The notes under the pieces are model-generated. The model searched no databases. It worked only from the letters and a program-made list of their open reading frames with translations, and was not told the origin of the DNA. Positions 23,477-53,689 of a stretch of DNA of 61,416 nt are shown here, one piece after another; the stretch's first letter is position 1, and every line of letters begins with the position of its first letter. Both the position numbers and the translations under genes were made by a program. The stretch comes from Pseudobutyrivibrio ruminis AD2017 (GTDB lineage: Bacteria; Bacillota; Clostridia; Lachnospirales; Lachnospiraceae): contig NZ_AUJQ01000011.1 in assembly GCF_000424305.1 (NCBI RefSeq), forward strand, positions 1-61,416. Direction: 5' to 3'.

Positions 23477-23775
23477 TTACCACTGTAAATCAGATTCTTG
23501 CAAATACAGTGGTAATTTCTGAGTATCTTTACCACTGTAAAACAGATTCTTCTATATTCAGTGGTAATTTCTAAGAATCTTTACCACTGTAAATCGGCTT
23601 CTTCCATATTCAGTGGTAATTTCTTGGAATCTTTACCACTGTAAAATAGATTCTTCTATATTCAGTGGTAATTTCTTGGAATCTTTACCACTGTAAATCG
23701 GCTTCTTCCATATTCAGTGGTAATTTCTTAGTATCTTTACCACTGTAAAACAGATTCTTCTATTTTCAGTGGTAA
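23477..23775. repeat. Six-unit 52-bp palindromic tandem array (array A)
   Basis: TTACCACTG starts at exactly 23477, 23529, 23581, 23633, 23685 and 23737. In each unit it is matched by CAGTGGTAA 21 bases later, giving a 39-base hairpin and a 13-base linker. Units 2, 4 and 6 carry CAGATTCTTC in the loop while 3 and 5 carry CGGCTTCTTC, so the array looks built from 104-bp dimers. The linker AAGAATCT can pair with loop AGATTCTT, giving a second, interleaved fold. The array fills the gap between folC and the mutase gene. No open frame or known RNA is recognised. Confidence 0.95.
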
Positions 23776-23778
23776 AGC

Positions 23779-25074
23779 CTAGGCTTTTGATTCATTACTT
23801 ATTTGAGATATTAGATATAGTGAACCTGCAATACACACTACATCTGCTTTTTCCTTGATGCAATCAAGTGTTATATCAGCACCGAGTACGACTGCATCCA
23901 CGCCTCTTGCGCTTATCATCTCTGCCAGCTTCTCTGGTGGCATGGTACGAGGATTTGGGACGGCTACAGTATAGCACTTATCTGCAATAGGAAGCAGTGT
24001 GTCTAGGATGATGTCCACTTCCTTATCCGCAAGGATGCCAAGTACAAATGTAATCTTCTTGTCTGGGAAGTATTCTTCTAAAGACTGACGAAGAACTGTT
24101 GCGCCTTGTCTGTTATGGCCTCCGTCTATGATTACCGGTGGATTATCGGAAAGCAGTGTAAACCTTCCAAACCACTTCGTATTTGCGATACCTTCTACTA
24201 TAGCTTCTTCACTAATTGGATAACCTAGGGCGAACAGCGTTCTTGCTGCTGCAATAGCTAAAGCTGCATTGTCAACCTGATAGGTACCGAGCATAGTAGT
24301 GAAATACTCTTTACCATCTGCCGTCATAAACCTCTGTCCATGAATATCCCTAGTGATTACCTTAGATGATTGGACGAATTCTATAGGAACATCTTCAAAT
24401 GACCTACAGACTTTCCTTAAAACCTGTTCAACCTCTGGCTCCTGCACAGCACTTACTACTGTAGTTCCAGACTTTATTATACCGGCTTTCTCAGTAGCAA
24501 TCTCCGTAAGTGTGTTTCCAAGAATAGTCATGTGGTCGTAGCTGATAGAAGTGATAACCGATACAAGTGGTGCAGGGATTACATTAGTAGTGTCCATCCT
24601 GCCACCCATGCTCACTTCTAGCAGCACCAGCTCACAGTCCATCTTAATAAAATAAATGAAGGCCATTACCGTCAGGAATTCATATTCGCTAACAAAAATT
24701 CCTTCATCTGACAACTCATCATAAGAAGGCTTAACCTGAGAAAACACCTCTGCAAAATCTTCATCAGAAATATCAATGCCGTTCACCCTAAACATTTCGT
24801 TATAGCGATATAAAAATGGTGAAGTAAAGGCACCCGTAACAACGGATGCCTCATTTAAAATATTAGCCAAATATGTAGTGGTGGAACCCTTGCCATTGGT
24901 TCCTGCTATATGAACATATTTAAGTTTATCCTGAGGCCTGTTAAGCTTTTCTAGAAGTGCCAGCTCCGCATCCAGCGAAAACATATTCTTTCCACTGCTG
25001 CCATCCTTTGGCGGCATGAAATGTGGCATACTCTTGAAAAAATTCACTGCCTCATCATAGCTATATTTCATCAT
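23779..25074 (-). CDS. folC: Dihydrofolate synthase/folylpolyglutamate synthase
   Basis: A 431-residue Mur-ligase-like enzyme that adds glutamate to dihydropteroate or folates. YVHIAGTNGKGSTTTYLANI is the P-loop, SVITSISYDHMTILGNTLTE the conserved catalytic stretch, and VIIDGGHNRQGATVLRQSLE the C-terminal domain motif. Its start overlaps the folT stop by 4 bases, so transport and intracellular trapping of folate are translated together and fall under the THF riboswitch upstream. Confidence 0.94.
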   Translation of the reverse strand: MMKYSYDEAVNFFKSMPHFMPPKDGSSGKNMFSLDAELALLEKLNRPQDKLKYVHIAGTNGKGSTTTYLANILNEASVVTGAFTSPFLYRYNEMFRVNGIDISDEDFAEVFSQVKPSYDELSDEGIFVSEYEFLTVMAFIYFIKMDCELVLLEVSMGGRMDTTNVIPAPLVSVITSISYDHMTILGNTLTEIATEKAGIIKSGTTVVSAVQEPEVEQVLRKVCRSFEDVPIEFVQSSKVITRDIHGQRFMTADGKEYFTTMLGTYQVDNAALAIAAARTLFALGYPISEEAIVEGIANTKWFGRFTLLSDNPPVIIDGGHNRQGATVLRQSLEEYFPDKKITFVLGILADKEVDIILDTLLPIADKCYTVAVPNPRTMPPEKLAEMISARGVDAVVLGADITLDCIKEKADVVCIAGSLYLISQISNESKA

Positions 25075-25589
25075 ACTGCTAATCTCTTTATTCCTACCTT
25101 TTCAAGTGAATTAAGAACTGCATACATAAGCACGGTGTACACAGGAATCATGATAAGTTCCTTAGGAAGACGTGTAACGATTGCTGCAAGATAGCCGTTC
25201 TTTAGATAAAGAAGGCTGAGCCAGTAGCTGTTCATGACTACGCCTACAATAAAGGTGTGTACTACCTGGGCTGCAAAAATTCTAGGCAATGTACACTTCT
25301 TACCGTGAAGCATTAATCCAAAAATGATTCCACTTACTATTCCACTGATAGTAAAGCCTGGGAAAAATGGGCCTGTAGGCTTAACCAAATATCCTCCGAT
25401 ATCTGTGATGGCGCCTACTACACCTGCAACGCCTGGTCCAAACAGCATACCTGCTAATGCGATTGGCAGGGAACCAAATCTGATTTCAATCAGCTGATTG
25501 ATTGGTAGCTTAAAGAAGCCCAGCACAATGCCGATGGCTGTAAGCATAGCTGCAAGTGTAAGTGTTCTTGTGTTCATAAGTTTTTTCAT
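25071..25589 (-). CDS. folT: ECF transporter S component, folate-specific (FolT-like)
   Basis: A 172-residue integral membrane substrate-binding subunit with about six helices. The N-terminal TLTLAAMLTAIGIVLGFF and EIRFGSLPIALAGMLFGPG resemble the ECF S-component fold, and GAITDIGGYLVKPTGPFFPG is typical of the folate group. It needs the shared EcfA1/A2/T module, which is not encoded in this window. Assignment to folate rests on the THF riboswitch and on translational coupling with folC as well as on the motifs. Confidence 0.9.
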   Translation of the reverse strand: MKKLMNTRTLTLAAMLTAIGIVLGFFKLPINQLIEIRFGSLPIALAGMLFGPGVAGVVGAITDIGGYLVKPTGPFFPGFTISGIVSGIIFGLMLHGKKCTLPRIFAAQVVHTFIVGVVMNSYWLSLLYLKNGYLAAIVTRLPKELIMIPVYTVLMYAVLNSLEKVGIKRLAV

Positions 25590-25594
25590 AAAAA

Positions 25595-25638
25595 ATACAC
25601 CTCCTTTGCAGTTTCCTTTTCCTACAATGAAGGTGTAT
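25595..25638 (-). promoter_or_regulatory. Shine-Dalgarno sequestering hairpin of folT
   Basis: On the minus strand ATACACC (25632-25638) can pair with GGTGTAT (25595-25601), which overlaps the end of the AAAGGAGGTG ribosome-binding site. ACCTT at 25630-25634 (minus strand) can instead pair with AAGGT at 25646-25650, so two exclusive folds exist, as expected for the expression platform of a translational riboswitch. Confidence 0.65.
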
Positions 25639-25658
25639 ATAGCTTACCTTACTATGTA

Positions 25659-25753
25659 GCAGCGGGATGCGAATTTAAAACCGCGGTAACATCCTTCGTC
25701 CATCTGCCAACTCCCTGTGCAAACGGCACTTAACGCTTTAAATTCTACTCTGC
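25659..25753 (-). ncRNA. THF riboswitch upstream of folT-folC
   Basis: On the minus strand the aptamer runs from GCAGAGTAGAATTT through GCGTTAAGTGCC to CGCGGTTT and CCCGCTGC. The closing GCAG/CTGC helix, the GAGTAGA start, the invariant GCGTTAAGTG and the GGATG...ACGAA elements match the tetrahydrofolate riboswitch as I recall it. It stands between a promoter and the folate transporter gene. When tetrahydrofolate is plentiful it should lower translation of folT and folC. Confidence 0.92.
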
Positions 25754-25780
25754 ATTTGTCTTGTTTTTTGTTTCGCCTAC

Positions 25781-25809
25781 AGTATAAGATTAGCCACCAT
25801 ATAATGCAA
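25781..25809 (-). promoter_or_regulatory. Promoter of folT-folC
   Basis: On the minus strand TTGCAT (25804-25809) and TATACT (25781-25786) are 17 bases apart. The start would fall just upstream of the riboswitch. Confidence 0.72.
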
Positions 25810-25852
25810 TAGCTAAAAACAATTTTTGCTATAAAATAAATTTATCCCTCTG

Positions 25853-25891
25853 AAAAAGACCTATTTGGCATTTATCACCAAATAGGTCTTT
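25853..25891. terminator. Terminator after the giant surface-protein gene
   Basis: AAAAAGACCTATTTGG and CCAAATAGGTCTTT form a long stem just beyond the stop, with A and T runs on both sides. It closes the sugar locus. Confidence 0.85.
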
Positions 25892-25896
25892 CTATA

Positions 25897-28800
25897 TTAC
25901 TTATTGCCCTTTTTCAATGCTTTTGTAAAAACTACATATCCGCCACTTACAAGAATTAGTGCCAGTGCAATGAGTATTAATATCAGAATTGCATTACTAT
26001 CTTTTTTCTCGCCTGTAGTAGGTGTTTCTTCATCAGATATGATTTCTTCTGATTGCTCATTATTCTTTTCTAATGTGTTCTCAGCTGAATCTTCCAATGT
26101 AGAATCTTCACTATTTTCTAATTTCTCATCTACACTGCTTTCAGCTTCGGACTTTTGCTTAGAGCTATTAGCTGCCTTTACCTTATCAGTTGTTTTAGCA
26201 ACTTTATTGTTTCCAGCAGTAGGTGCCTTAGGACTATCAATTCCTGTGATGTCCTTTGCTGGGCTTACAACTTTGTTTACTACATGACTAACTGCTGCGG
26301 TACCTGTGCTTCCACCTTGCGATGGCTTGAAAGGATTAACTGGATTAATGATAGGCTCCTTTGTTTTGGCTTCTTTTATCTTGCCCTTTGTCAATTCATC
26401 TGTAAGCTTAACATATCCGCAGAAGCCGCCTGCCATGTCAATAAAGCTTACTCCATCCACTGCTGCAAATACAGGATTTGGATTGTAGCTGTAGTTTGAA
26501 TCATATCCAGTATTATTGATATCCTTTACTAATCTAGCTTTCTTGTCTAATGATTTTTCAGTGAAATCATATTCACAAAGCTTTTCTGGAAGCGCCTCAG
26601 CCTTTGCCACTTTAATCTTGATATCATCAGATGATGAAAGTTCTCCATCTGAGACTGTAAGTGTAAGTACATAGTTACCAACTTGATTAAAGCTTACATC
26701 AGTGATTGCCTGATTATCCTTGTCGATAGCTACTGCCGCATTATCTGGCTTGCTCTTTACTGTCCACTTGTATTCTAATGAAGAATTAGGATATCCATCG
26801 TCAATAGCTGATGCTCTTAGTCTTGTAGTTGCAACAGCTCCTAAAAGTAAGTTTGTTCCTGTAGCTTCTTCTAATTCTGTCAGCTTTTCCTCTGGCACTA
26901 CTTCATCTGTTGTAACTTTCAGGTTAGAATCCTCTGCTGTGACAGATTCAACTTCATCTGTGTTTTCCTCTGTTGTTTCAGCATCTTTTTCAGTAGCTTC
27001 TTCGATATCAGAGTCTTTCTCTTCTTTCTTTTCTTCTGACTCCACATCCTTTTCTAGCAATTCTTCCACATCTTCCTTTTCTAGCTCTTCAAGCTCTTCT
27101 TCCACTGGCTCACCACCAAGGACAGCCCATTCAATTACACCAACGCCTGAATTATTTGCTTCCTTTTTATTTAACTGAATTCTCAATCCATCAGTCATAA
27201 CAGGCTTGAAGGATGTAACATTATATTTATCAGCTTCTAGACCATAGCCTGATGCATCCTTTACTTCTTTCCAATCATCACCGTCCTTGTAACTAATGGT
27301 GTAATTCTTAGGGAATTGAATTCCCACTACTTCCTCAGAATCATTATCCTTCCAGAAGTAAATAGCCGATTTGCTAATGCTTATCTTTTTATCCCAGGTG
27401 TATGTAATGGTCTCGTATTCTGATGTGTTACCCCATGAGCCATAAGCACCAGTTGCTGGCTTTTCCATTGATGCAGATGATGACACTCCATCATTAACTG
27501 CACCTAATGTTTCCCAGCTAGAAACATAGCTTGTGGAAACTGAAGCATCTAAAGCCAAATTTATATCCATATCAAGCGCGGCAATGGCATCGTTAAGTCT
27601 GTCGGCCATCTCATCTAATTCTTTTTGAGACACACCCATCTTTGCAACCAATTCCTTAGCCTCTGCCAAAACAGATTTCATATCAGAATATCCTGATTTA
27701 ACAAAGAATGGATCAACCTTTTCAGCTCTTGAAATAGCACTATTTAATCCAGACTTATCAACAGCGCCTTCCTTAAATCCATATACTTTCCACTCAATTA
27801 CGCCACAGGCTAATGTCTTAGGATTAAGAGTCATTCTAAGTGCTGTTGTTTGAATAGGTTTGATAGTTGTAGTGTTGTATTTATCAAGTTCTGTTCCAAG
27901 ACCTTCTACTATATCGCATTCCTTCCACTGTCCGCCTTCAAGATACTCCAGCTTTACAGCTGCAGGTGAGAAGTTTCCTCCATTATCTTTGAAATAGTAT
28001 GCATCCTGGCCGGTAATAATAACCTCATCATCCCAGGTGTACATTACCCATGCTGGTGCGCCCTGAGCGCCTCCTAACCAGTTGTGCCATACTCCATGGG
28101 ATGTATCATTTGAAGCTGATGGGTCATAACCATCATTTAAACCAGCTACACCACCTAAATCCTGTGGAGTGTTTACGATAGCGCTAGGTGTTGCGTAAGC
28201 TGCAAGATTTACCTCTTTTCCATCAACTACAACAACATTAGCTTTGGCCTTAACAGTAGATTTATCTACTGAACCTTCTACAATAAACACGCCCTTAGCA
28301 CCATAAGATTCTGCAGATACTTCATCCCATTTCACTTCCACATTTCTATATACGCCATCTGAATACAGGGCGCTAACTTCTTTCGGAAGTTTAGGTGCTT
28401 CGTTTATCTTAGTTACAACTGCTGCATCCTTTATAGATACAATTTCTCTATCTGCCAAATCTCCAAAAAGCTTTGAAACCTCTTCTTCATTAAATGCTTT
28501 TGAATACATACTAAAGCCTTTAATTTTTCCATTTAAGAAGCTAATAGATTCCTCGTGAGAGCGTCCCAGATAGTTTCTTTGAGCCTCTCCTAAATCTGAA
28601 AATACAAAGCCTGAATCTAATGTAGCAATCTTATCTCCATCAAGGTAAGCAGCAATATTTCCATTATCATTTGTTAATACTAATTTCTTATCATATTCTG
28701 GTGCTATCGCATATACGGTATCCACTGTTTTCAGCTTCTTTGATTTCATGTCAGTAGCAGCGATGCTTAACTGATTATTTCCCTTGAAGCTTACATATAA

Positions 28801-31800
28801 GTAGTTTTCATCTAAATCGCCAAATTCGATAAGTCTTGTTCCATTCTCCTGATTTGCAGAAAGATTGAAGTCAATGACTATTGTAGCCTCATCTATTCCA
28901 TCTACTTCTGGAAGATATGTTTCAATATCATTGCCTGCATCTACAATTGGAGCTGTGTTTTTTGCAGCTGCTCCAATCTTAAATTCAACTTCTGATGTAT
29001 CTTTCTTTCCAAGAGGAACTGACACTGTCACAGTCTGATTCTTAGCTGCCTTAAATGTTCCATGAGCTTTACCATCAACCAGGATTGTGTAGCTGCCATC
29101 TGCAAGTCCTGTTAAATCAATGCTTGTATTATGCGCTGTTTTTTCAAGATTTGTTACAGTAAGCTTTACATCACTGCAATCCTTAGCAATTATCGCATTT
29201 ACGTATCTGTCCCTATCTAGCTCTACATAGCAACCATCATCGATTAGGTTTAATCTGGTGTTCAATCCATCAAGTGGTTTTATAGAATAACTATCTCCAT
29301 TATCAACCACATTACAGCCGTATCCAAATAAACCAAACACTGGATCTGTAGCAACATCTGCAGATAAAATCTGAAGTGCTCCAAAGAGACCCAAATCTGC
29401 TTCACCAGCCATCTGTCTCCAGCCGTTGTGAATCTTTCCACCTCCAGTTCCCTGTCCACCTAGATTTCCCATTTCACTTTGATAAGTCCAGGCAACTGTC
29501 CCTATATTCTCAGGGTCAGCATCTATCTGACCTGAATTGATGCATGTGAGGTTTGCCAGCTTTGCTGCGTAATTAACCCTCTCTGCTTCAGCCGATTCAA
29601 TAGAATTTAATCCATTATTTTCAAGTCGCAAATAATCATCCATGCAATATCCTGCAAGTGCTGCTGTATACTGGAAGTTCCACCAGCTTTCGCCACAGAT
29701 AGTGGTAGGATTAGCGTAGTGATACCACACTGGCTGAAGTCCTCTACATGCCCTTGTTTTCAAATCAATCTTTTGCATCATGCTTAGGGCATTAGCTTCA
29801 TCACTTCCAAGATTTAGCTTAGCAAGAGTATATACAGCTTCCTCACCAGTATTGTCATAAGAATACTCTGAGCCATAAGGATACTTGGTGCTAGAGAAAT
29901 TCTTATACTTTCTTGCCATAATATCTTCAATCTCAGCAGCCTCATCGGTATATCCTTCTGCCTTTAAAGAGGCGATAATGTCAGGTGTAGTAAGCTCTCC
30001 CATTACACCTGTTGACCAGTTATAATACACCCCGTCTGTATAAAGAGCCTTCATTATGTTATATGCTCTAAGTAGATAGGTATCCTTATCTTCAATGTAC
30101 TCTACAATGTCAGGATATTTGCTGGCAATCTTGTACATTGAATAGTAGGTGTTGTAGATGTGAGGATATGCATAGCCTCTGTATGTAGGTGTATCATTTG
30201 GTTCCTTCATTTGGAAATCGTGGATAAGATAATCCTCCTGATGCTCCTGCATAAGTCCATGCCATATTGCTGTATCCAGGTATTCATCAATAGCAGTAAT
30301 TTCCCTTTCTACTGGGATGTAAACATTCTTTTCAGCAATATATTCACCGTGGGTTAATCCCCAATCATCGCCCCAGCCCCAATATCCATTGAAAACACCG
30401 CGCTTTGATTTGGTATCCATCATCCAATCGTCAAATACCTTATCATAAAGCTCGCCTTCAGCATCCCACTGGGTCTTATCTACCATAAACTGTGAATGAG
30501 TATTCAATGCATTGCTGACATCATCCATAATGTAGAATTGCAGCTCAGTTTCCTTTGTTCCATTATCATAGGAAACAACTACATCGTTTTGTCCTAAATC
30601 ATCAAAGGCTATATCGTATATATGATATTGTTCGCCGTCTATAAGTTTTGTGGATTCGTATTTTGCATAAGTACCAGCTTCGCTTTTTTCGCATGGAAGA
30701 TTATTGCTGACACTATTCTTATTGTCCTCAAATAGATTCAACTCATGAGGACATTTGATACTTACCTTCAAATCCTTAGCATCATACTTTGTATGAAGAT
30801 ACATTTTTGCTGGCATGTTTTTAGCAAAGGTCATACCTGGAACTACCACAGCATCTACAAGTCCCTCGTCATACAAGGTAGACTTCATATCATCTTCATT
30901 ATCAACAGGACTAAAATCAAAGGAATATTTCTTTGACTCGCCCTTCTTTAGCTTTAATGATGTGTTATCAAGATAACCACGATTAGTTTTTTTGATAACA
31001 TCTGAATGGATGTAGAAAACATTCAGGCCACTTGCCCATCCATCCTGATCCTGACACCAGGATTTTTCATTGGCGCTTCTTTCCTCCGTACGCCAATGGT
31101 CCTGATATTCAAAACTGGCATCAGTGGCATCATCCGGAGTAAAAAGTACAAACTGGCCTTGTCCACTTGGTCTGGTTGCATAGATATAAGATGAATTTTT
31201 TCCCACAAAGCTGTGGTCTACAACTCTTGTCTCGTAGATTTCATCTCCACCTGACCAATACTCATTAAACGTAATAGGAAGTCCTAAATCCCCTACGGTA
31301 AGGACATCTTCACTTTTATTTTCTATTTCGATGTCCCACTTTATCCTGTCATTAACAAGAGTATAGGTTTCCTTAACCTGATAGCCTTTTATTCCTTTAG
31401 CTTCAGTTGCATTCCCGCCGTATGTAACTATTACCTTGTTATCTTTAAGTTCGATGGTTCTATCCGAGTCAGACTGGCTTGTGTATCCTTCCCTATATTC
31501 ACCATCAGAAAATTTAGTTGCAAGCATCAGCTCACCCATCCATTGGTGGGTGCTGCTAGCCCCCTGAGACGGAGCATTTTCTTCGTTCATCACATAGTTT
31601 GTAGGATATTTATCTCCCACTATATACAGCTTTCTAATCTGGCCGTATTTTCCTATGTTTACAGAGAAATAATCATTGGATAATGTATAGCTTCCATCTG
31701 CTTCCTCTGTCGTCTTTGTTTGACTTGTTGCCTTATCTTCCTTAGCCAACACATCAATTGTCCCCATACTACCTGGCAAAGTTGTAAATGCTGTAATTGT

Positions 31801-31848
31801 AGCCAGTGCAAGCGACAGAACCTTCTTCTTCATTCTCGTGTTTGACAT
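25897..31848 (-). CDS. Giant wall-anchored glycan-active protein (DUF5695-like, carbohydrate-binding modules)
   Basis: A 1983-residue extracellular protein. A signal peptide (about 1-37) is followed by a region of about 900 residues resembling DUF5695, an alpha/alpha-barrel-like module seen in polysaccharide loci. Then come a LamG/concanavalin-like region (about 990-1130), an Ig-like group 4 domain (about 1150-1210), two discoidin-like modules around a helical FIVAR-like linker (about 1220-1540), an acidic Glu/Lys tract, and a PKD/Ig-like domain. Near the C-terminus TPTTGE fits an xPxTG sortase signal with Thr in place of Leu, followed by a membrane helix and KALKKGNK. It follows the GH127 gene, so it probably binds or degrades the same glycan. 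Catalysis is unproven. Confidence 0.75.
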   Translation of the reverse strand: MSNTRMKKKVLSLALATITAFTTLPGSMGTIDVLAKEDKATSQTKTTEEADGSYTLSNDYFSVNIGKYGQIRKLYIVGDKYPTNYVMNEENAPSQGASSTHQWMGELMLATKFSDGEYREGYTSQSDSDRTIELKDNKVIVTYGGNATEAKGIKGYQVKETYTLVNDRIKWDIEIENKSEDVLTVGDLGLPITFNEYWSGGDEIYETRVVDHSFVGKNSSYIYATRPSGQGQFVLFTPDDATDASFEYQDHWRTEERSANEKSWCQDQDGWASGLNVFYIHSDVIKKTNRGYLDNTSLKLKKGESKKYSFDFSPVDNEDDMKSTLYDEGLVDAVVVPGMTFAKNMPAKMYLHTKYDAKDLKVSIKCPHELNLFEDNKNSVSNNLPCEKSEAGTYAKYESTKLIDGEQYHIYDIAFDDLGQNDVVVSYDNGTKETELQFYIMDDVSNALNTHSQFMVDKTQWDAEGELYDKVFDDWMMDTKSKRGVFNGYWGWGDDWGLTHGEYIAEKNVYIPVEREITAIDEYLDTAIWHGLMQEHQEDYLIHDFQMKEPNDTPTYRGYAYPHIYNTYYSMYKIASKYPDIVEYIEDKDTYLLRAYNIMKALYTDGVYYNWSTGVMGELTTPDIIASLKAEGYTDEAAEIEDIMARKYKNFSSTKYPYGSEYSYDNTGEEAVYTLAKLNLGSDEANALSMMQKIDLKTRACRGLQPVWYHYANPTTICGESWWNFQYTAALAGYCMDDYLRLENNGLNSIESAEAERVNYAAKLANLTCINSGQIDADPENIGTVAWTYQSEMGNLGGQGTGGGKIHNGWRQMAGEADLGLFGALQILSADVATDPVFGLFGYGCNVVDNGDSYSIKPLDGLNTRLNLIDDGCYVELDRDRYVNAIIAKDCSDVKLTVTNLEKTAHNTSIDLTGLADGSYTILVDGKAHGTFKAAKNQTVTVSVPLGKKDTSEVEFKIGAAAKNTAPIVDAGNDIETYLPEVDGIDEATIVIDFNLSANQENGTRLIEFGDLDENYLYVSFKGNNQLSIAATDMKSKKLKTVDTVYAIAPEYDKKLVLTNDNGNIAAYLDGDKIATLDSGFVFSDLGEAQRNYLGRSHEESISFLNGKIKGFSMYSKAFNEEEVSKLFGDLADREIVSIKDAAVVTKINEAPKLPKEVSALYSDGVYRNVEVKWDEVSAESYGAKGVFIVEGSVDKSTVKAKANVVVVDGKEVNLAAYATPSAIVNTPQDLGGVAGLNDGYDPSASNDTSHGVWHNWLGGAQGAPAWVMYTWDDEVIITGQDAYYFKDNGGNFSPAAVKLEYLEGGQWKECDIVEGLGTELDKYNTTTIKPIQTTALRMTLNPKTLACGVIEWKVYGFKEGAVDKSGLNSAISRAEKVDPFFVKSGYSDMKSVLAEAKELVAKMGVSQKELDEMADRLNDAIAALDMDINLALDASVSTSYVSSWETLGAVNDGVSSSASMEKPATGAYGSWGNTSEYETITYTWDKKISISKSAIYFWKDNDSEEVVGIQFPKNYTISYKDGDDWKEVKDASGYGLEADKYNVTSFKPVMTDGLRIQLNKKEANNSGVGVIEWAVLGGEPVEEELEELEKEDVEELLEKDVESEEKKEEKDSDIEEATEKDAETTEENTDEVESVTAEDSNLKVTTDEVVPEEKLTELEEATGTNLLLGAVATTRLRASAIDDGYPNSSLEYKWTVKSKPDNAAVAIDKDNQAITDVSFNQVGNYVLTLTVSDGELSSSDDIKIKVAKAEALPEKLCEYDFTEKSLDKKARLVKDINNTGYDSNYSYNPNPVFAAVDGVSFIDMAGGFCGYVKLTDELTKGKIKEAKTKEPIINPVNPFKPSQGGSTGTAAVSHVVNKVVSPAKDITGIDSPKAPTAGNNKVAKTTDKVKAANSSKQKSEAESSVDEKLENSEDSTLEDSAENTLEKNNEQSEEIISDEETPTTGEKKDSNAILILILIALALILVSGGYVVFTKALKKGNK

Positions 31849-31878
31849 TTGTCCCCCTTAATTCTCCTTTCTACTACA

Positions 31879-44055: not shown

Positions 44056-44059
44056 CAAC

Positions 44060-44086: not shown

Positions 44087-44205
44087 TTGATAATTTGTTA
44101 AATTTTTATCTAACTGTGTTATATTATCTATTTTTTTGTGTATTTTGTAGAGTGTATTCTTTACCTAATAAGGGTCAAATTTTGCGATTTGATGTCAGAT
44201 TGTTA

Positions 44206-44892: not shown

Positions 44893-44916
44893 TTTCTACC
44901 TCCTAGTTTATGGCTC

Positions 44917-45149
44917 GCCTGTTACGGTCTCTAAGTTTTTCTCTCGCCTGTTACGGTAACAAAGAAATATATTTCCCCGTCGACGGGATGTCTCCTTGAG
45001 AAACATAATAGTTTGTTACCTACAGGCTATTTTTACTCTTATGAATTACGGTTACAAAAAATTATATTCGATCTCGACGGGATGTCTCCTTGGGAAACAT
45101 ATTTTTTTGTTACCTACAGGCTACTTTTAGACTCTTGAGACCTACAGGC
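44917..45149. repeat. Nested inverted-repeat elements between luxS and mtnN
   Basis: Three left-end/right-end pairs share a GCCTGTTACGGT / ACCTACAGGC type terminus. The outer pair is 44917-44931 with 45137-45149. Inside it lie element 1 (44946-44963 with 45012-45027, GGTAACAAA/TTTGTTACC) and element 2 (45045-45061 with 45103-45121, one end degenerate). Both inner elements hold the same core CGACGGGATGTCTCCTTG (44981 and 45075, 94 bases apart). No open frame is present. This looks like a small mobile palindromic element that has inserted into or duplicated within itself. Confidence 0.85.
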
Positions 45150-45181
45150 TATTTTTACTCTTACTAGTTACAACGAGCTTT

Positions 45182-45643: not shown

Positions 45644-45661
45644 TTATTCCTATAATCCTTC

Positions 45662-46213
45662 CTATACGTTATAAACTATTCCCTTGGCAAGCTTGTCTGC
45701 TACATCTGCGCCCTTGAAGGTCTTTACGATTTCAAGTGCAAATGGGATAGCTGTTCCCATGCCACGGCTTGTGATGATGTGGCCATCGTGACAAACTGGG
45801 TCTGTAGAAAAATCTGCATCTAGCAAATCCTTCTCCATACCAGGATAGCAGGTGGCCTTCTTTCCTTTAAGGATACCAGCCTTACCAAAAACAGTTGGTG
45901 CTGCACAGATGGCTGCAAGTCCCTTTTTAGATGTATTAAAGCCATGAACCTGATCCATGAGAGGCTCGCATAATTCAAGATTAAGTGTACCTGGCATTCC
46001 TCCTGGAAGCACAAGCATATCTGCACTTTCAAAATCAGTGTTTTCAATCAGCTTATCGCAGTATGTTGCGATACCGTGGGCACCTGGCACCTTTTTGTTG
46101 CCTGTGATAGAAACCATTTCTATTTCAATATCAGCACGTCTAAGAATATCAACAACTGTAAGCGCTTCGATTTCCTCGTGGCCCTCTGCCATAAAAATCA
46201 GTACCTTGCTCAT
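45662..46213 (-). CDS. DJ-1/PfpI family protein
   Basis: A 183-residue class I glutamine-amidotransferase-like protein of the DJ-1/YajL group. VLIFMAEGHEEIEALTVVDI carries the conserved Glu, LVLPGGMPGTLNLE the following loop, and GLAAICAAPTVFGKAGIL the nucleophile Cys with ICAAP. Members act in stress protection or as deglycase/protease-like proteins; the activity here is not known. It is probably the first gene of the luxS unit. Confidence 0.9.
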   Translation of the reverse strand: MSKVLIFMAEGHEEIEALTVVDILRRADIEIEMVSITGNKKVPGAHGIATYCDKLIENTDFESADMLVLPGGMPGTLNLELCEPLMDQVHGFNTSKKGLAAICAAPTVFGKAGILKGKKATCYPGMEKDLLDADFSTDPVCHDGHIITSRGMGTAIPFALEIVKTFKGADVADKLAKGIVYNV

Positions 46214-46274
46214 TAGTCTACCTCCCTAATTATTATTAAACGTGATTATATTTTACTATTATTTACACAAAAGA

Positions 46275-46300
46275 AAAAGAGTGACATTTGCCACTCTTTT
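46275..46300 (-). terminator. Terminator after the chemoreceptor gene
   Basis: AAAAGAGTG and CACTCTTTT form a 9-bp stem with a T run on the minus strand just beyond the stop. Confidence 0.8.
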
Positions 46301-46308
46301 CCTGAATT

Positions 46309-48360: not shown

Positions 48361-48386
48361 GTTCCCCTCCATTACATTATTTTCGC

Positions 48387-48420
48387 AAAAAGGGACCATA
48401 TAACATATGATCCCTTTTTT
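48387..48420. terminator. Terminator after the 119-residue gene
   Basis: AAAAAGGGA and TCCCTTTTT with inner CATAT/ATATG pairing form a stem between the small gene and the chemoreceptor start, with T runs in both directions. Confidence 0.75.
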
Positions 48421-48429
48421 ATTAAATAT

Positions 48430-48789
48430 TTATGCGTAGGCATCAAAGCGTGAGCCTGATGTGTTGTATGTGCTGCCCCTTCCATTTACTCCATAGGATG
48501 TGTTTCCCGAAAGGAATTTAGTGGCTATGTCATTGAAGTCACTAGATACCTGAATGTTGCGCTTTTGCCTTTGATATGGATCTACAGTTGTAAAATCCCT
48601 ATCAATCTCCTGCACTGTGACATTAGGATATTGTACAGGTGATGTGCCTGTAACAGACGCACCATTTTTTACTGATTCATTAGTATACACATCTGAAAAA
48701 TCAGCATCATTGTCAATGGCATAGTTCATAGGTTGAACGCTACTAATTGGACTATATGAACTTAATCCGCCAATAGGTGCAATAGCCAT
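48430..48789 (-). CDS. Uncharacterised 119-residue protein
   Basis: I do not recognise it. The sequence starts MAIAPIGGLSSYSPISSVQP and is rich in Ser, Asn, Asp, Tyr and Gly, with no membrane helix or clear signal peptide. The tail GNTSYGVNGRGSTYNTSGSR is low in complexity. The frame is open 22 codons further upstream, but TGGAGG before the Met at 48789 fixes the start. The gene has its own leader hairpin and terminator and lies just upstream of the chemoreceptor gene. Its composition recalls flagellar or secreted accessory proteins, a weak hint only. Confidence 0.7.
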   Translation of the reverse strand: MAIAPIGGLSSYSPISSVQPMNYAIDNDADFSDVYTNESVKNGASVTGTSPVQYPNVTVQEIDRDFTTVDPYQRQKRNIQVSSDFNDIATKFLSGNTSYGVNGRGSTYNTSGSRFDAYA

Positions 48790-48796
48790 AAAAAAA

Positions 48797-48846
48797 CCTC
48801 CAAAAGTAACTACCACAATGATAGCACCTTTGGAGGGTTGAAAACC
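48797..48846 (-). promoter_or_regulatory. Leader hairpin holding the ribosome-binding site of the 119-residue gene
   Basis: CCTCCAAA and TTTGGAGG (48839-48846 and 48797-48804) can close a roughly 50-base hairpin with partial inner pairing. On the minus strand the 3' arm contains the TGGAGG ribosome-binding site and is followed by six T and the ATG. This is the same arrangement as at 36931-37007. It may act as an attenuator or lid. Confidence 0.6.
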
Positions 48847-48894
48847 GAAATACACAAACTTTAGATATTAAATTCTTGATTTTTTCACATTATA

Positions 48895-48988
48895 CCCCTC
48901 ATCAGTCAGCTACGCTGACAGCTTGTCTCGCCTTCCGGCTCGGTCGTTGCTAAACAGGCTCCACTGGAGCCTAGCAACCCCCAGGGGG
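48895..48988. repeat. Interspersed palindromic (REP-like) element
   Basis: The stretch begins CCCCTCATCAGTCAGC and ends CAGGGGGAAGCC, a pattern I recall as widespread between genes of Clostridia. It contains GTCAGC/GCTGAC, an AGGCTCC/GGAGCCT stem nested in GTTGCTA/AGCAAC, and CCCCC-A-GGGGG. It lies directly beyond the sufB stop and is more GC-rich than its surroundings. It may end the transcript. Confidence 0.65.
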
Positions 48989-48996
48989 AAGCCTTT

Positions 48997-49920
48997 TTAT
49001 CTTAAGAAGCCGGCTACGATCTGCTCCTCAGCCTCTTCTTCTGTAAGGCCAAGTGACATGAGCTTGATGAGCTGGTCGCCGGCGATTTTGCCGATGGCTG
49101 CCTCGTGGATGAGGGCTGCATCTACGTTCTTTGCATCAAGACGTGGGATAGCTACTACGTGTGCGTTACCCATGATGATGGCATCACATGCTGCATGACC
49201 GCTGCAGGCTGTGTTTCCTTCGATTGCTACTTCAAAAATCTGCTCTGAATCATCCTTTGCAACAGAACGAGAAACTACATCTGTGCTGGCATCCTTTCCA
49301 TTAAGGAGTACCTTGTAATCTGATGTGGCCTTCTGGCTGCCGTGAGTCATAAGTGCCTCGTGGATAAGAAGTGTTGCTCCTTCAGCAAGCTCAGCATAGT
49401 TAGTACGAACTGTAGAATCTACACCCTTAATCTGCACCATTTCCATCTCAACATGGCTGCCCTCTTCCTGATATACGTTTGTTACAGGATTAAGGATACG
49501 AGCGCCCTTTCCGTCGCCTTCACCATAGTGCTTCTCAACATATTTAACCTTGGCATTCTTGCCAACGTGGAAGGTGTGGATACCATCATGCTGAGAATCC
49601 TGGTCACCACAATTGGAAATACCACAGCCAGCTACGATAGTAACATCTGCATCCTCTCCAACATAAAAATCATTGTAAACCATATCCTTAAGACCGCTCT
49701 GTGTAAGAACTACAGGGATATGAACGCTTTCGCCCTTTGTGCCTGGTTTGATGATGATATCGATACCTGGCTTATCTTCCTTTGTAACGATATCGATGTT
49801 GGCAGTAGTGTTACGTGCTGCGCTGGAACCGTTGGCACGAATATTATATGCACCCTGAGGTATGCCATCTAAATCAGCAACCTCGTGTAAAATGTTCTTT
49901 TGAATTGCATCAAGAGCCAT
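48997..49920 (-). CDS. sufB: SufB/SufD-family Fe-S cluster scaffold, short form
   Basis: A 307-residue protein with the beta-helical SufB/SufD core and the C-terminal signature: HEAAIGKIAGDQLIKLMSLG, then LTEEEAEEQIVAGFLR. A Cys-containing segment, ACSGHAACDAIIMG, lies shortly before. It is shorter than usual SufB (about 470 residues). It overlaps sufC by one base in a TAATG junction. No SufS, SufU or second SufB/D is nearby, which fits the reduced two-gene SufBC/SMS type found in anaerobes. It should assemble Fe-S clusters in the cytoplasm. Confidence 0.9.
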   Translation of the reverse strand: MALDAIQKNILHEVADLDGIPQGAYNIRANGSSAARNTTANIDIVTKEDKPGIDIIIKPGTKGESVHIPVVLTQSGLKDMVYNDFYVGEDADVTIVAGCGISNCGDQDSQHDGIHTFHVGKNAKVKYVEKHYGEGDGKGARILNPVTNVYQEEGSHVEMEMVQIKGVDSTVRTNYAELAEGATLLIHEALMTHGSQKATSDYKVLLNGKDASTDVVSRSVAKDDSEQIFEVAIEGNTACSGHAACDAIIMGNAHVVAIPRLDAKNVDAALIHEAAIGKIAGDQLIKLMSLGLTEEEAEEQIVAGFLR

Positions 49921-50660
49921 TACTGGTCACCTCCTAACTTTTCGCAGGCTGCTCCAACAGCTGCTGATGTGCCAAGAAGCTCTGGGAGAATTTCATCCTT
50001 AGGTCCCTGCTTCTTAACCTTGCCGTTTTCAATAACTACGATTTCATCTGCGATATTTAGGATGCGCTCCTGGTGTGAGATAACGATGATAGTTCCATTG
50101 ATATCCTTGCGCATGTTCTCAAATACCTTAATAAGATTCTGGAAGCTCCAAAGATCGATTCCAGCCTCTGGCTCATCAAAAATAGAAAGCTTTGTGCCAC
50201 GTGCAAGTACTGTGGCGATTTCGATACGCTTAAGCTCACCACCTGAAAGTGAACCGTTAACCTCACGCTCTACATAATCCTTAGCGCAAAGTCCTACCTT
50301 CGAAAGGTACTCACAAGCTACTGCAACAGAAATGTGCTCACCTGCTGCAAGACGAAGTAAATCGATTACTCTGATTCCCTTGAAGTGAACTGGTGCCTGG
50401 AAAGCAAAGCTGATTCCCATTTTTGCACGCTCAGTGATATTTTTATCTGAGATATCCACACCATCAAGGATAATCTGTCCGCTTGTCAACTGATTGACTC
50501 CCATTATAAGCTTAGCAAGTGTGGACTTACCGCCACCGTTAGGACCGGTGATGACGATAAACTTACCATCTTCTACTGTAAGGTCAAGACCATCAATGAT
50601 TTCTTTAACGGAATCATTTTCATCATCAACCTTGTATGTAAGATTTTTGATTTCTAACAT
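49920..50660 (-). CDS. sufC: SufC-family Fe-S assembly ATPase
   Basis: A 246-residue soluble ABC ATPase: TGPNGGGKSTLAKLIMG (Walker A), GSLSGGELKRIEIATVL (signature), LSIFDEPEAGIDLWSF (Walker B) and VISHQERIL (switch His). DEPEAGID is the SufC-type variant. Its partner is the SufB-like protein encoded immediately downstream. A structured leader (50691-50717) and a TATAAT box precede it. Confidence 0.93.
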   Translation of the reverse strand: MLEIKNLTYKVDDENDSVKEIIDGLDLTVEDGKFIVITGPNGGGKSTLAKLIMGVNQLTSGQIILDGVDISDKNITERAKMGISFAFQAPVHFKGIRVIDLLRLAAGEHISVAVACEYLSKVGLCAKDYVEREVNGSLSGGELKRIEIATVLARGTKLSIFDEPEAGIDLWSFQNLIKVFENMRKDINGTIIVISHQERILNIADEIVVIENGKVKKQGPKDEILPELLGTSAAVGAACEKLGGDQ

Positions 50661-50690
50661 ATCTATACTCCTGTTCTATGTGCTACACTC

Positions 50691-50717
50691 CCTAACCCCA
50701 TGCCAGTGGCAGTTAGG
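50691..50717 (-). promoter_or_regulatory. Leader hairpin of the suf operon
   Basis: CCTAAC and GTTAGG enclose TGCC-AGT-GGCA with a four-base bulge, upstream of the sufC ribosome-binding site and downstream of a TATAAT box. It may be a regulatory leader or only local structure. Confidence 0.4.
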
Positions 50718-50748
50718 AACGACTAATTTTATCAACTAATTCAGCCCT

Positions 50749-50754
50749 ATTATA
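50749..50754 (-). promoter_or_regulatory. -10 box of the suf operon
   Basis: TATAAT on the minus strand, about 90 bases upstream of sufC. No strong -35 box is seen. Confidence 0.45.
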
Positions 50755-50797
50755 TTAACATGGATTTGTAAAAATGGTAGCCTATTTTTGCAAAGAA

Positions 50798-50830
50798 AAG
50801 GGCTACTGAGAAAACTTCTCAGTAGCCCTT
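50798..50830. terminator. Terminator after the XRE-TPR regulator gene
   Basis: AAGGGCTACTGAGAA and TTCTCAGTAGCCCTT form a perfect 15-bp stem. A T-rich run follows on the minus strand. Confidence 0.88.
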
Positions 50831-50834
50831 AGTC

Positions 50835-50866
50835 AAATCTTATTTGACGCGCGTCAAATAAGATTT
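50835..50866. repeat. Perfect 32-bp palindrome across the regulator stop codon
   Basis: AAATCTTATTTGACGC and GCGTCAAATAAGATTT abut with no spacer. On the minus strand the left part encodes the last residues (Asn-Leu-Ile-stop) of the XRE-TPR regulator, so one arm is coding. The terminator follows four bases later. It could be a DNA site for a dimer or a protective 3' hairpin. Confidence 0.85.
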
Positions 50867-51963
50867 TCCATATACTCCTGCACTCGCTTTATAGCTTGCA
50901 GTTCTTTTTTGGTGAAGCCCAGGTCATCCTGGTTATATGTTTCTTCTAATATTTGTTTAATTACCAAGAGCGTATCACCCTCTTTTTCATCAAATGTAAT
51001 AGGTATATCTTTCTTAGGCCCATAAACAAATTTAATATTTGTATATGCATCATACACTGGGCTTACATCAAAGGCCTTCGCATGCTCGATGGCTAACGCT
51101 ATTTCCGACATCATTTTCTCATGATTTCCAATAAGTTCGTAACACATAGCTTTGATTGTTTTTATCATGGCTATATATCTTGTCAGATAAGATATCTTTC
51201 CAGGAATCATGAGCCCCACTGCCGTACTATCCAGCCATTCGTTTAATTCTATCAAGTCATCATACTTTTTACTTGATAGAAAGAAATCAACCATGTGACC
51301 AGCTACATTCCTCGTATCAAACATGCTTAAATGCAGCTTTTTTGTATAACAATCTAATGCTTCATCCTTATTGCCCTGTTTCCAGTATATTTCTCCCAGT
51401 AAATCATTAAATATTCCATCTACATTTATTCGCTTTATAATTTCTATCTGCTTTTCTTTGTCCTTCTCAACAAGTGCACGCTGCTTAAGGATTTCCATCT
51501 CATCAATTTTGTTTTCTGGAGAATCAGCTAATATTCGCAATGCTCTATCTAAAAATTCTATAGCTCGATTTCTATAACCTTCATTTTCCTGCTCCTGATA
51601 CCAGCTTATGTAATATACACTGCCAGCTCTCTTCAAAATCTTTACATCATTAGGATATCTCACTACAGCTTTATCGAGATGCTCCCTTGCCTCGTCAAGC
51701 CTATGTTCCCTGTATAACTCAAATGATTCCTCGATAATATCATCCACTCTCTTTGATACCATGGAATACCCAACCAGCGCATCCATAGAAAGATTAAAGA
51801 AATCGGCTAAATCCATCATTGTGTTTATATCAGGGACACAGTTGCCGTTTTCCCATTTTGACACTGTGCCCACTGTTACGCCCATGGCCTCAGCCAGCTG
51901 CTCTTGGGTAAGAAGCATCCGCTTCCTGTTTGCTCTGATGTTCTCTGATAGATTGTTCTGCAT
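50854..51963 (-). CDS. XRE-family regulator with TPR-like sensor region
   Basis: A 369-residue protein. The N-terminal helix-turn-helix (about 5-60) reads LSENIRANRKRMLLTQEQLA then GVTVGTVSKWENGNCVPDI. The remaining 300 residues are helical, with TPR-like spacing (YREHRLDEAREHLDKAVVRY, IYWKQGNKDEALDCYTKKL). Such fusions often sense peptides or metabolites. AAGGAGAAG precedes the ATG. The gene starts 74 bases inside the end of the MFS transporter gene, so the pair is co-expressed and the regulator probably controls the exporter. Confidence 0.87.
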   Translation of the reverse strand: MQNNLSENIRANRKRMLLTQEQLAEAMGVTVGTVSKWENGNCVPDINTMMDLADFFNLSMDALVGYSMVSKRVDDIIEESFELYREHRLDEAREHLDKAVVRYPNDVKILKRAGSVYYISWYQEQENEGYRNRAIEFLDRALRILADSPENKIDEMEILKQRALVEKDKEKQIEIIKRINVDGIFNDLLGEIYWKQGNKDEALDCYTKKLHLSMFDTRNVAGHMVDFFLSSKKYDDLIELNEWLDSTAVGLMIPGKISYLTRYIAMIKTIKAMCYELIGNHEKMMSEIALAIEHAKAFDVSPVYDAYTNIKFVYGPKKDIPITFDEKEGDTLLVIKQILEETYNQDDLGFTKKELQAIKRVQEYMENLI

Positions 51964-53227
51964 CTATATTCTTCTCCTTAATGTTGCTTATCTTTTTCAC
52001 AAAATAGATTCCACCAAAAATAATGATTCCAAGCACTCCTGTGAATAAAAGTATAGTGTCACAATTTAGCCTAACTGTAGCTAGTGTTACAAAAAATGTT
52101 CCAACTGGTAGTGAAGCTGTTCCTACTGCATTAAAAGCGCTGCTACATCTAGCCATATAGTCCGTATCTATCTTCTTTACCAATTCCACATTTAACATAC
52201 CAGCGATGATAGACATTGTTAGTCCGATTATAAACATGCTACCCGTTGCCAACACAATCGAAAGACTCATACTGTCTTTTACTAACGCTCCTCTTGAAAG
52301 CAAAAGACAAGCCACCCCCTCAATTGCTCCAAGACAACCAACAGCTTTATCAAATGAAATCTTCGATATAACCTTTGGCAAAACCAGTGATGCAATGATT
52401 GCACCAACCCACTGCCCCGCCATAACAATACTCAAAAAATCAGCATCCTTCATATATACACTAGATACAAGTGGTGTTAATAAAGAATTGAGTGGTGAAA
52501 GCACAAAGTTTAACAATACTGCCATAAGGCAGAAATAAATGATAGTGCCATTACCCTTCATATACTTAAAACCATCTTTGAGCTTGGTCATATAATCCTG
52601 TTCGCTGATGCTTGCACTCTGAACCTTACATTTGCTGTAATCAATAAATAGGATAATGAATGCTCCAATAAAAAATGTAGCCACATCAATAAGCATTGCA
52701 ACGCCCACTCCAAAAGCTGCAATAATAATTCCAGCCAATGACATTCCAACAAGATTAACCACCTGAGCAATTGTCATCTTCATACTCTGCATAACAGTAT
52801 AATAGTCGCCCTGAACAATCTCTGGCACAAAGGCACCTGCTGCAGGTTCATTGAGGGATTCAATGGTAGTGATAAGTAGTGTGAATCCAGCCATGATAAA
52901 AGGATTAACCAAATGCAGATAATACAAAACTACAAATCCTGCTATCACCATACCGCGAAGCAAATCCGTATATACGATAATCTTTTTCTTGTTCTTTCCC
53001 TCTACCCATGCTCCAGCCAGTGGAAGCACAACTATTCCTGGTAGCTGATTAAGTCCGAATATGATCGCTGACCAAGTTGCGCTACCTGTCAACTGATACA
53101 CCAGCCAGGTAAATGCAATGGCATCTATTGAATCTCCAAATCTGTTAATAAGATTTGAGAATAATAGCTTCCTGCAATTAGCTATCTTTAATATATCTTT
53201 GTATCCTACTATTTTTGTCTCTCCCAT
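51890..53227 (-). CDS. MFS transporter, drug-exporter type (DHA3-like)
   Basis: A 445-residue protein with about twelve membrane helices. The early SNLINRFGDSIDAIAFTWLV and AGAWVEGKNKKKIIVYTDLL are the MFS loop motifs. FVPEIVQGDYYTVMQSMKMT resembles the macrolide-efflux (Mef-like) group. The last about 25 residues are hydrophilic and overlap the XRE regulator start in another frame; they may be an acquired tail. The substrate is unknown. Confidence 0.88.
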   Translation of the reverse strand: MGETKIVGYKDILKIANCRKLLFSNLINRFGDSIDAIAFTWLVYQLTGSATWSAIIFGLNQLPGIVVLPLAGAWVEGKNKKKIIVYTDLLRGMVIAGFVVLYYLHLVNPFIMAGFTLLITTIESLNEPAAGAFVPEIVQGDYYTVMQSMKMTIAQVVNLVGMSLAGIIIAAFGVGVAMLIDVATFFIGAFIILFIDYSKCKVQSASISEQDYMTKLKDGFKYMKGNGTIIYFCLMAVLLNFVLSPLNSLLTPLVSSVYMKDADFLSIVMAGQWVGAIIASLVLPKVISKISFDKAVGCLGAIEGVACLLLSRGALVKDSMSLSIVLATGSMFIIGLTMSIIAGMLNVELVKKIDTDYMARCSSAFNAVGTASLPVGTFFVTLATVRLNCDTILLFTGVLGIIIFGGIYFVKKISNIKEKNIDAEQSIREHQSKQEADASYPRAAG

Positions 53228-53275
53228 AATCTAAGCCTCCCGAGTTTATGTATGAATAGCAATTTTGTTACTCAG

Positions 53276-53281
53276 ATTATA
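53276..53281 (-). promoter_or_regulatory. -10 box of the MFS-XRE operon
   Basis: TATAAT on the minus strand, about 50 bases before the MFS start. The -35 region is not recognisable. The repeat array lies further upstream. Confidence 0.4.
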
Positions 53282-53393
53282 AGATTTGGTTAGAGATATT
53301 TTAACATATTAGCTTTCTAGTTTGTATAAAATTTATTTTCTCGTTAGGAAAATTACTAAAACACTGTGTTTCGTTATTATTTTTTTAATACAT

Positions 53394-53689
53394 TACTATC
53401 TACCATTAATTATTCTGCCTAGATAGTAGCATTTTCTAGTCAGTCTACTACCTGCAAGCCATTTTTCATGACAGATAGTAGACATTCACATATTAGCTAC
53501 TACCTATATAATATTTTCGCCCACAGATAGTAGTGGCTCTAACAAAAACTACTACCCTAAGACTATTTTATTCCTACAGATAGTAACATCATTTCGAGCG
53601 ACTACTATCTATGGCTATATTTCAACTGCAGGTAGTAATGTCCTTCCATATGACTACTATCTATAGCTATTTTTTCCCCATAGATAGTA
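53394..53689. repeat. Six-unit palindromic tandem array (array B)
   Basis: TACTAYC begins at 53394, 53446, 53498, 53550, 53603 and 53655, a period of 52 bases with one of 53. Each is answered by a GATAGTA- or GGTAGTA-type arm ending 35 bases from the unit start, so the hairpin is 35 bases and the linker 17-18. Loops are T-rich; linkers differ between units. It fills the 538-base gap between the MFS gene and the AgcS terminator. The sequence is unrelated to array A, yet number and period are the same. No open frame is present. Confidence 0.92.

Follow-up and report, generated by a model that had tools for sequence, protein, structure and literature searches.

Two arrays of helically phased, inverted half-sites in Pseudobutyrivibrio ruminis are probably orphan members of nuclease-associated repeat families

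Results

Two intergenic arrays of inverted half-sites

The 61,416-nucleotide stretch of Pseudobutyrivibrio ruminis AD2017 analyzed here (contig NZ_AUJQ01000011.1 of assembly GCF_000424305.1; hereafter, the window) carries two arrays of short inverted repeats, A and B (Table 1). The nearest matches of its folC likewise place the genome in Pseudobutyrivibrio. Array A sits between the 3' end of a folC-like gene and a phosphoglucomutase gene, and array B between the 3' end of a Na/Ala symporter gene and a gene for a major facilitator superfamily (MFS) transporter. A preliminary description of this DNA had claimed that the two arrays are unrelated in sequence, yet share a period of about 52 bases, and that each lies between the 3' end of one gene and the 5' end of the next; all of this was borne out. 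Based on the sequence comparisons set out below, we conclude that A and B are members of two different dispersed repeat families, each apparently tied to its own paralogue of a predicted nuclease.

All 12 half-sites of array A match TTACCACTG with no mismatch (23477 to 23767), alternating between the plus and minus orientations; every step between half-sites of the same orientation is exactly 52 bp, and Tandem Repeats Finder reports a period of 52 with 5.8 copies. In array B, where the steps are 52–53 bp, we found 11 in-register matches to CTACTATCTG at no more than two mismatches, along with one off-register match at 53487. The left arm of the fourth pair, at about 53549, is the twelfth half-site and is too degenerate to pass the two-mismatch cut-off.

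Table 1. Arrays A and B and their flanking genes in the window
Feature	Position	Strand	Remarks
Array A	23477..23775	.	12 inverted half-sites TTACCACTG, forming 6 palindromes; same-orientation step 52 bp
Array B	53393..53690	.	dispersed copy with 12 inverted half-sites YTACTAYCTR in 6 palindromes, one of whose arms is degenerate; step 52-53 bp
folC-like gene (Mur ligase domains)	23779..25074	-	stop, at 23779, 2 bp from array A; flanking gene only
Phosphoglucomutase-like gene	21670..23361	-	other side of array A
Na/Ala symporter gene	53766..55187	-	flanks array B; flanking gene only
MFS transporter gene	51890..53227	-	other side of array B; flanking gene only

A sequence-agnostic array finder, which looks for 9-mers in alternating orientation at no more than one mismatch, detected 14 arrays in 861,416 bases of the same genome (the window plus 800 kb of further stretches). 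When the window, and likewise every piece in this sample, was dinucleotide-shuffled once, the finder detected no array, indicating that the pattern is genuine and recurrent. One of the 14 is a false positive, a His/Glu-rich coding repeat at G000:C1:16779-16955 (G000 denotes this genome, other G labels related genomes, and L labels individual loci).

Half-sites are spaced at whole helical turns

We compiled 787 same-orientation spacings from 73 of 89 annotated arrays, the others having failed the alternation or length filter. These spacings peak at 52–53, 62–63, 72–75, 83–86, 94 and 104–106 bp, that is, at multiples of 10.5 bp from five to ten, with a minority at 40–43 and 68–71 bp. When each of the 41 motif groups described below was represented by its one modal spacing, the resultant (R) was 0.86 at 10.5 bp. 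After removal of the 50–55 bp class, the remaining 51 group-spacing values still gave an R of 0.63 at 10.5 bp (best period 10.8, R 0.66), a value that none of 20,000 uniform draws reached. Per-array medians outside 49–56 bp (26 arrays) were less sharp, with an R of about 0.5 that is flat from 10.5 to 12, in part because medians mix spacings.

The general form of the arrays is thus one of 9–10 bp half-sites in alternating orientation, whose same-orientation distances fall at whole helical turns, mostly five. Within a single array, the linker may shift by at least one turn while the palindrome remains constant (20–21, 31 and 62 at L130), and in an array of six palindromes on contig C11 of G005 the loops are mostly unlike, yet the steps are still exactly 52 bp. 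Such a layout points to proteins aligned along DNA, rather than to RNA hairpins.

Arrays frequently precede genes of a nuclease family

A search of the same genome with array B revealed many further arrays of the B motif, while array A had a strong match only to itself. At C1:75111-75899, an open reading frame (ORF) with a 263-residue homologous part is flanked by two B-type arrays, and this array–ORF–array layout recurs in the related genomes G010 and G023. The gene family to which this ORF belongs, predicted to encode nucleases, is represented by nine paralogues in the P. ruminis genome, and 28 of 29 Pseudobutyrivibrio genomes have matches to it.

We examined 120 loci of this family: 30 from the genus search, 60 further genus matches, which were picked to cover genomes without regard to arrays, and 30 from a search of the bacterial family (one, L201, repeats L141). 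Among the 117 loci with at least 300 bp of upstream sequence, 65 nuclease genes have a strict array within 1 kb upstream, compared to 11 of 857 fixed 1-kb intervals of a genome sample (Fisher's exact test, 7e-57). This background is slightly underestimated because the fixed intervals split some arrays (the array at C2:190.9k was missed), and two of the 11 positive intervals themselves adjoin a nuclease gene. Downstream, strict arrays were found in only eight of 119 stretches. The last half-site lies a median of 59 bp from the predicted start codon, within 100 bp in 44 of the 65 cases, one of them overlapping the predicted start. No other cluster of flanking ORFs recurs in more than seven of 60 nuclease loci, leaving the nuclease as the sole common gene. 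At L166, L211 and L194, arrays stand on both sides of the gene, as they do at C1:75k.

The protein has about 265 residues, with a variable N-terminal domain and a PD-(D/E)XK-like C-terminal domain. It had no match near a cut-off in Pfam or NCBIfam. RSKSE, YE, PDF, EH and G209 are invariant in 34 aligned members; E206-H207 stands where ExK is usual, and the invariant K158 or the nearly invariant K223 might serve as the lysine. Together, the invariant residues and a structural model display the alpha-beta core and the conserved acidic E / PD / E residues of PD-(D/E)XK proteins, the model being that of a homologous domain and not of the array-associated protein itself (predicted local distance difference test 86, predicted TM-score 0.81). 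With this model, Foldseek ranked Bax1, a restriction-endonuclease-like protein and R2 retrotransposon proteins at the top (best E 2.4e-3, TMq about 0.47).

Homologues of the C-terminal domain form the end of the PADLOC PDC-S68 models (E to 3e-28) and of large ORFs on viral contigs (hhalign 99.9 for eight of these, E 7.5e-35). In the four of the IMG/VR loci L231–L239 that were read (L231, L236, L238 and L239), the nuclease domain ends helicase-like ORFs of 1053–1129 residues, which we take to be RecD-like helicase-nucleases. The top profile match in the PDB, Endonuclease I (presumably that of T7), is insignificant (E 0.07), and seven of the 34 members show a weak match to a Holliday-junction-resolvase PHROG. 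For the N-terminal domain, there is no clear relative, although three of the 34 members weakly match an integrase PHROG (L195: residues 19–132).

Within the bacterial family, 82 of 250 sampled genomes contain relatives at E<=1e-15, and most of the listed matches span almost the entire profile. Among 398 genomes sampled from the phylum, 12 matched; the five of these that belong to the same bacterial family did so along the entire profile, the other seven in the nuclease domain. We also considered an origin in phages or plasmids and rejected it: in nine viral contigs, alignment A1 meets only the nuclease-domain part, while a second query met none, and neither 72,556 plasmid records nor 50,697 phage records contained a place covering 80% of one query protein.

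Array motifs differ between nuclease paralogues

At a similarity cut-off of 0.75, the 65 nuclease-side arrays fall into 41 motif groups, some of which are variants of one core and three of which are A-type. The A motif is common to the arrays upstream of one nuclease clade, which includes the resident gene G000:C7:168173-168985 on the minus strand (L145/L348) and its relatives L154, L161, L173, L193 and L199; relatives occur in G023, G003, G002, G022, G010 and others. The B motif is that of the nuclease clade adjoining a gene that we take to be comEC, and its similarity to the array upstream of the resident nuclease gene G000:C1:75111-75899 on the plus strand (L111) is 0.94. At least 11 arrays of the B motif are present in the P. 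ruminis genome.

Array A is a dispersed copy that no nuclease gene adjoins. We tested 14 such orphan arrays of this genome, nine of them B-type and mostly obtained from the B search; the set comprises six motif families, five of which have a resident partner. Thirteen of the 14 match the motif beside a resident nuclease (similarity >=0.68). For the orphan at C4:129.1k, the resident motif (L141) had been hand-seeded with that word, but the independently found relatives L132, L198 and L182 score 0.87–0.95. In 12 of the 29 genomes, the exact A palindrome occurs together with an A-clade nuclease (E<=1e-70); 14 have neither, one has the motif alone, and two have the nuclease alone (p 2e-5, without correction for kinship and with nuclease-side arrays counted in).

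Motif similarity climbs with the identity of the 140 N-terminal residues (Mantel r 0.44 for the N-terminal domain; none of 2000 permutations as high). Among pairs whose nuclease domains are at least 0.7 identical, the motif is shared in 25 of 25 at an N-terminal identity of 0.6 or more, and in only five of 54 below 0.5. L130 and L140, for example, have nuclease domains that are 87% identical, N-termini that are 36% identical, and unrelated motifs. Along the protein, the windowed correlation with the motif peaks at 0.48 at residues 33–56, and not at the end nearest the array, being 0.31–0.38 at the extreme N-terminus and 0.20–0.27 in the middle. These comparisons favor a putative recognition segment in the N-terminal domain, with linkage between array and N-terminus as the alternative.

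Presence and size of arrays vary among relatives

A close folC orthologue is present in 25 genomes of the genus, and in six of these folC is followed by an A-type array: six palindromes in G000, G013 and G026, four in G005, an array cut by the contig end in G024, and one in G007 that lies further off, behind a second, unrelated array. L049, which has the same layout as G007, shows four palindromes; its 1.1-kb space between folC and the phosphoglucomutase gene (pgm) holds two array families, AAAAGGTATAACC (74–75 bp step, seven turns) and the A motif. In six other genomes (G023, G010, G003, G002, G016 and G006), pgm lies 60–91 bp from folC with no array, and the stretch downstream of folC in the remaining 13 yielded neither pgm nor an array. 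We looked by eye for a transposon-like insertion with target duplication at this site, but the comparison of filled and empty sites revealed no clean boundary or duplication, G023 being more deletion-like.

At the B site, there are six palindromes in G000, eleven in G010 (by eye; 19 half-sites called), a single one in G005, which resembles a fusion of the first and the last, and none in G023. Five further genomes have the symporter, but the MFS gene was not found alongside it and no array was called. Beside nuclease genes, arrays comprise 6 to 29 half-sites. Since arrays vary in presence and size by whole units, six is not a fixed number, contrary to the preliminary description, which had regarded six units as a shared feature.

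Two arrays of the genome, at G000:C1:43669-43942 and C1:282071-282344, are 96% identical over 274 bp, and are thus recent copies within one genome. Both consist of four palindromes and share their flanks; one of them enters the N-terminal end of an ORF that appears, by eye, to be acetyltransferase-like.

A search of the comEC site revealed that the B nuclease follows comEC in 13 of 29 genomes, with an array called in 11. Of the rest, G024 has a solo array, G019 and G001 have remnants, G015 lacks downstream sequence, and 12 have neither. Recombination between two flanking arrays could leave solo arrays such as that of G024. We had considered recent jumping of the B nuclease, but the search showed a kept locus instead. 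Other paralogues keep other housekeeping neighbors, among them secA and guaA, as recognized by eye.

Other features of the window

A promoter-like TTGACA-17-TAAAAT sequence (by eye) lies between array A and the phosphoglucomutase-like gene, and recurs in G023 and G010, where the site has no array; between the symporter gene and array B there is a terminator-like hairpin, also recognized by eye. On the minus strand, a tetrahydrofolate (THF) riboswitch (RF01831, 84 bits) at 25658-25754 separates an ORF of 1983 residues (25897-31848) from one of 172 residues (25071-25589), the latter preceding folC. At 44951-45129, an intergenic repeat of 94–95 bp occurs twice, with an inner inverted repeat GGTAACAAA...TTTGTTACC and a common CGACGGGATGTCTCCTTG core; 94.5 bp corresponds to nine helical turns, and this repeat might be a relative of the arrays or something else.

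Discussion

A proposed role for the arrays

The results are best accommodated, in our judgment with somewhat better than even confidence, by regarding arrays A and B as orphan members of repeat families, each belonging to one Lachnospiraceae nuclease paralogue, that would serve as phased binding platforms of double-stranded DNA. The variable N-terminal domain would bind the half-sites in double-stranded form, many nuclease molecules thereby aligning along a single face of the helix. A gene-side array may act as both operator and anchor of the nuclease, whereas orphan arrays would be further platforms, spreading and resizing by recombination or break repair. Their spread might most simply be that of selfish DNA carried by the nuclease loci. 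The partner nuclease of A would be encoded at C7:168173-168985, and that of B at C1:75111-75899 of the same genome.

Much of what the preliminary description had proposed accords with this interpretation. The idea of one mechanism with sequence-specific families is sustained by motifs that go with nuclease paralogues, and a meaning for the period of about five helical turns by the 41 motif groups in phase at 10.5 bp. Its binding-site reading gains support from the phased spacings and from a motif that appears to track the paralogue, although this same tracking speaks against the generic nucleoid platform that it had also suggested. Its concern that the common geometry might be chance, should periods and copy numbers both spread broadly, applies only to copy numbers, which are indeed broad; the periods are quantized.

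A bolder formulation, which we offer tentatively and think less likely to be right than wrong, is that this is a new protein–DNA system, in which distinct nuclease paralogues, each with a half-site code of 9–10 bp in a swappable N-terminal domain, would form ordered rows on phased arrays that restrain the nuclease, while the platforms multiply. Such a DNA-addressed nuclease reservoir would be neither a transposon, nor a restriction system, nor RNA-guided.

Several observations weigh against the assignment of arrays to nuclease paralogues. Of the 117 nuclease loci, 52 lack a strict upstream array, as do four of the nine resident paralogues (L141, L142, L144 and L147), although weaker arrays are present at L141 and L144. 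The A motif is one base off that of its resident nuclease (similarity 0.68, the weakest of the 13 matches; its relatives score 0.84–0.87), G007 contains matches to the A motif but no A-clade hit at E<=1e-70, and the resident array family at C4:136.3k fits no nuclease motif seen. (This array, at G000:C4:136330-136567, has the motif GCGCGTATAA and a step of about 63 bp; its nuclease may have been lost or not recognized.) Half-sites of the same orientation, compared with their flanks, are closer to each other (5.83 mismatches of 19) than opposite ones (7.8), a likeness which implies that unit duplication shapes the arrays. Moreover, the nuclease loci look old and vertically kept, which does not favor high mobility.

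Other observations weigh against recognition by the N-terminal domain. A correlation with the motif was also seen for the nuclease domain (Mantel r 0.34, 0 of 2000 permutations), and near the C-terminus the windowed correlation climbs back to as much as 0.41. Across the full set of 1891 pairs, rank correlations are close to zero (0.04 and 0.07), which is probably due to the predominance of unrelated pairs. In addition, 26 pairs have a motif in common at an N-terminal identity below 50%, mostly inside the A and B clades. Finally, as the array and the N-terminus are adjacent, joint recombination could yield part of the association.

Alternative explanations

As to purpose, arrays that are dispersed and resizable are most plainly read as selfish DNA spreading by break repair, while the boldest reading is that of a parked defense or addiction nuclease: a potentially harmful enzyme kept on chromosomal arrays and freed upon damage to or loss of host DNA or arrays. 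We consider the latter unlikely. It would fit a nuclease domain shared with candidate defense proteins (PDC-S68) and with the helicase-like viral-contig ORFs, the invariance of the catalytic-type residues in the 34 aligned members, and arrays of 6–29 half-sites, usually more than an operator would need. However, the homology covers the nuclease domain alone, and the orphan array is missing at folC in G023 and G010 despite their A-clade nucleases, other A-motif sites being present there.

Slightly less probable, in our estimation, is that some other DNA-binding protein, such as a nucleoid protein or repressor, owns the arrays, with the nuclease linked by position only. The adjacency of array and N-terminus, which could make the motif association partly one of linkage, and the nuclease genes without a strict array speak for such an owner; against it stand the shift of the motif with the nuclease clade, the absence of any other gene recurring in more than seven of 60 loci, a correlation peak that falls inside the N-terminal domain, and the co-occurrence of motif and nuclease across genomes.

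The preliminary description had seen six hairpins in each array and had named structured RNAs as a possible class. Transcribed arrays might act as rows of RNA hairpins or as multiple terminators, or the DNA itself as cruciforms, and there is some appeal to this: the stems look perfect, the position is intergenic, nuclease-side arrays often lie near the start codon, and the insignificant PDB match is to a junction nuclease, as are the weak resolvase matches of seven members. We compared arms in 64 arrays (56 nuclease-side, 8 orphan). The two kinds of neighboring arms differ by a mean of 7.77 and 7.97 mismatches of 19, compared to 7.84 for non-adjacent opposite arms (p 0.38 and 0.15). As the arms of one palindrome match no better than arms across palindromes, folding is not the conserved trait; the palindromes arise because alternating half-sites all fit one consensus. 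Thus, the six palindromes of A and B stand, but as inverted half-sites, not as foldable stems. With no arm covariation, with a whole-turn spacing that RNA would not lead one to expect, and with no gathering-score match to Rfam covariance models at A or B (the THF riboswitch was the only one in the window), we regard this explanation as improbable.

Still less credible are neutral tandem repeats, made by slippage or duplication, whose common 52-bp period would be due to chance or inheritance. Differences by whole units and the internal homogenization of some arrays (2.8 same-orientation mismatches of 19 in array A, 5.8 on average) are in keeping with such an origin, but 41 motif groups with whole-turn spacings, unlike loops that keep their spacing, and the strong link to nuclease genes are not. 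Mobilization by a Y1 transposase (REP-associated tyrosine transposase, RAYT), as for repetitive extragenic palindromic (REP) sequences and bacterial interspersed mosaic elements (BIMEs), we hold to be the least plausible of all: alternating palindromes dispersed between genes, with a cognate gene, recall the general logic of REPtrons (PMC3733652), but a search for Y1_Tnp (PF01797) gave no match in G000 while detecting it in 5 of 14 control genomes, which refutes a resident RAYT, the partner is PD-(D/E)XK-like, and foldable hairpins are not conserved.

Significance and comparison with known systems

In the open literature searched, a scope from which subscription papers and preprints were mostly absent, we found no description of such an array/nuclease system; gut and rumen bacteria apparently harbor a large, undescribed set of DNA-repeat families, mostly paired with their own nuclease gene. 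The analysis turns a curiosity, two arrays of the same geometry, into a testable system with nuclease relatives in 82 of the 250 genomes sampled from the Lachnospiraceae, a major family of these bacteria. It also supplies some 40 motif groups as a natural set with modular nuclease and recognition parts, offers an example of helical phasing that is legible in genome sequence, and hints at a new source of intergenic palindromes.

The arrays are unlike CRISPR arrays, in which direct repeats are separated by unique spacers, as the repeats here alternate in orientation. There is some resemblance to the REPtrons (REP, REPIN or BIME repeats together with a RAYT), which likewise comprise short alternating palindromic repeats in intergenic positions, with the gene of a DNA-acting enzyme beside some of them. 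Here, however, the partner is PD-(D/E)XK-like, with no Y1 transposase match and no selection for foldable hairpins, and the arrays are long and helically phased, with several motifs per genome. The PADLOC PDC-S68 proteins and the viral helicase-nucleases share the homologous C-terminal nuclease domain, but in the PDC-S68 models (1202–1273 positions) and the four viral ORFs the match is confined to that domain, and the N-terminal domain of the array-associated protein is missing. Homing endonuclease genes also place a nuclease beside sequences that it may recognize, and could spread by break repair; in the present case, many sites are kept by the gene, rather than one site being destroyed by insertion, and the loci look old and vertically inherited. 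Lastly, phased operator and centromere arrays, such as ParB-parS or the arm sites of integrases, are rows of protein-binding sites, whereas in the arrays described here the proposed partner is a nuclease, the orientation alternates about every 2.5 turns, and copies are scattered in the chromosome.

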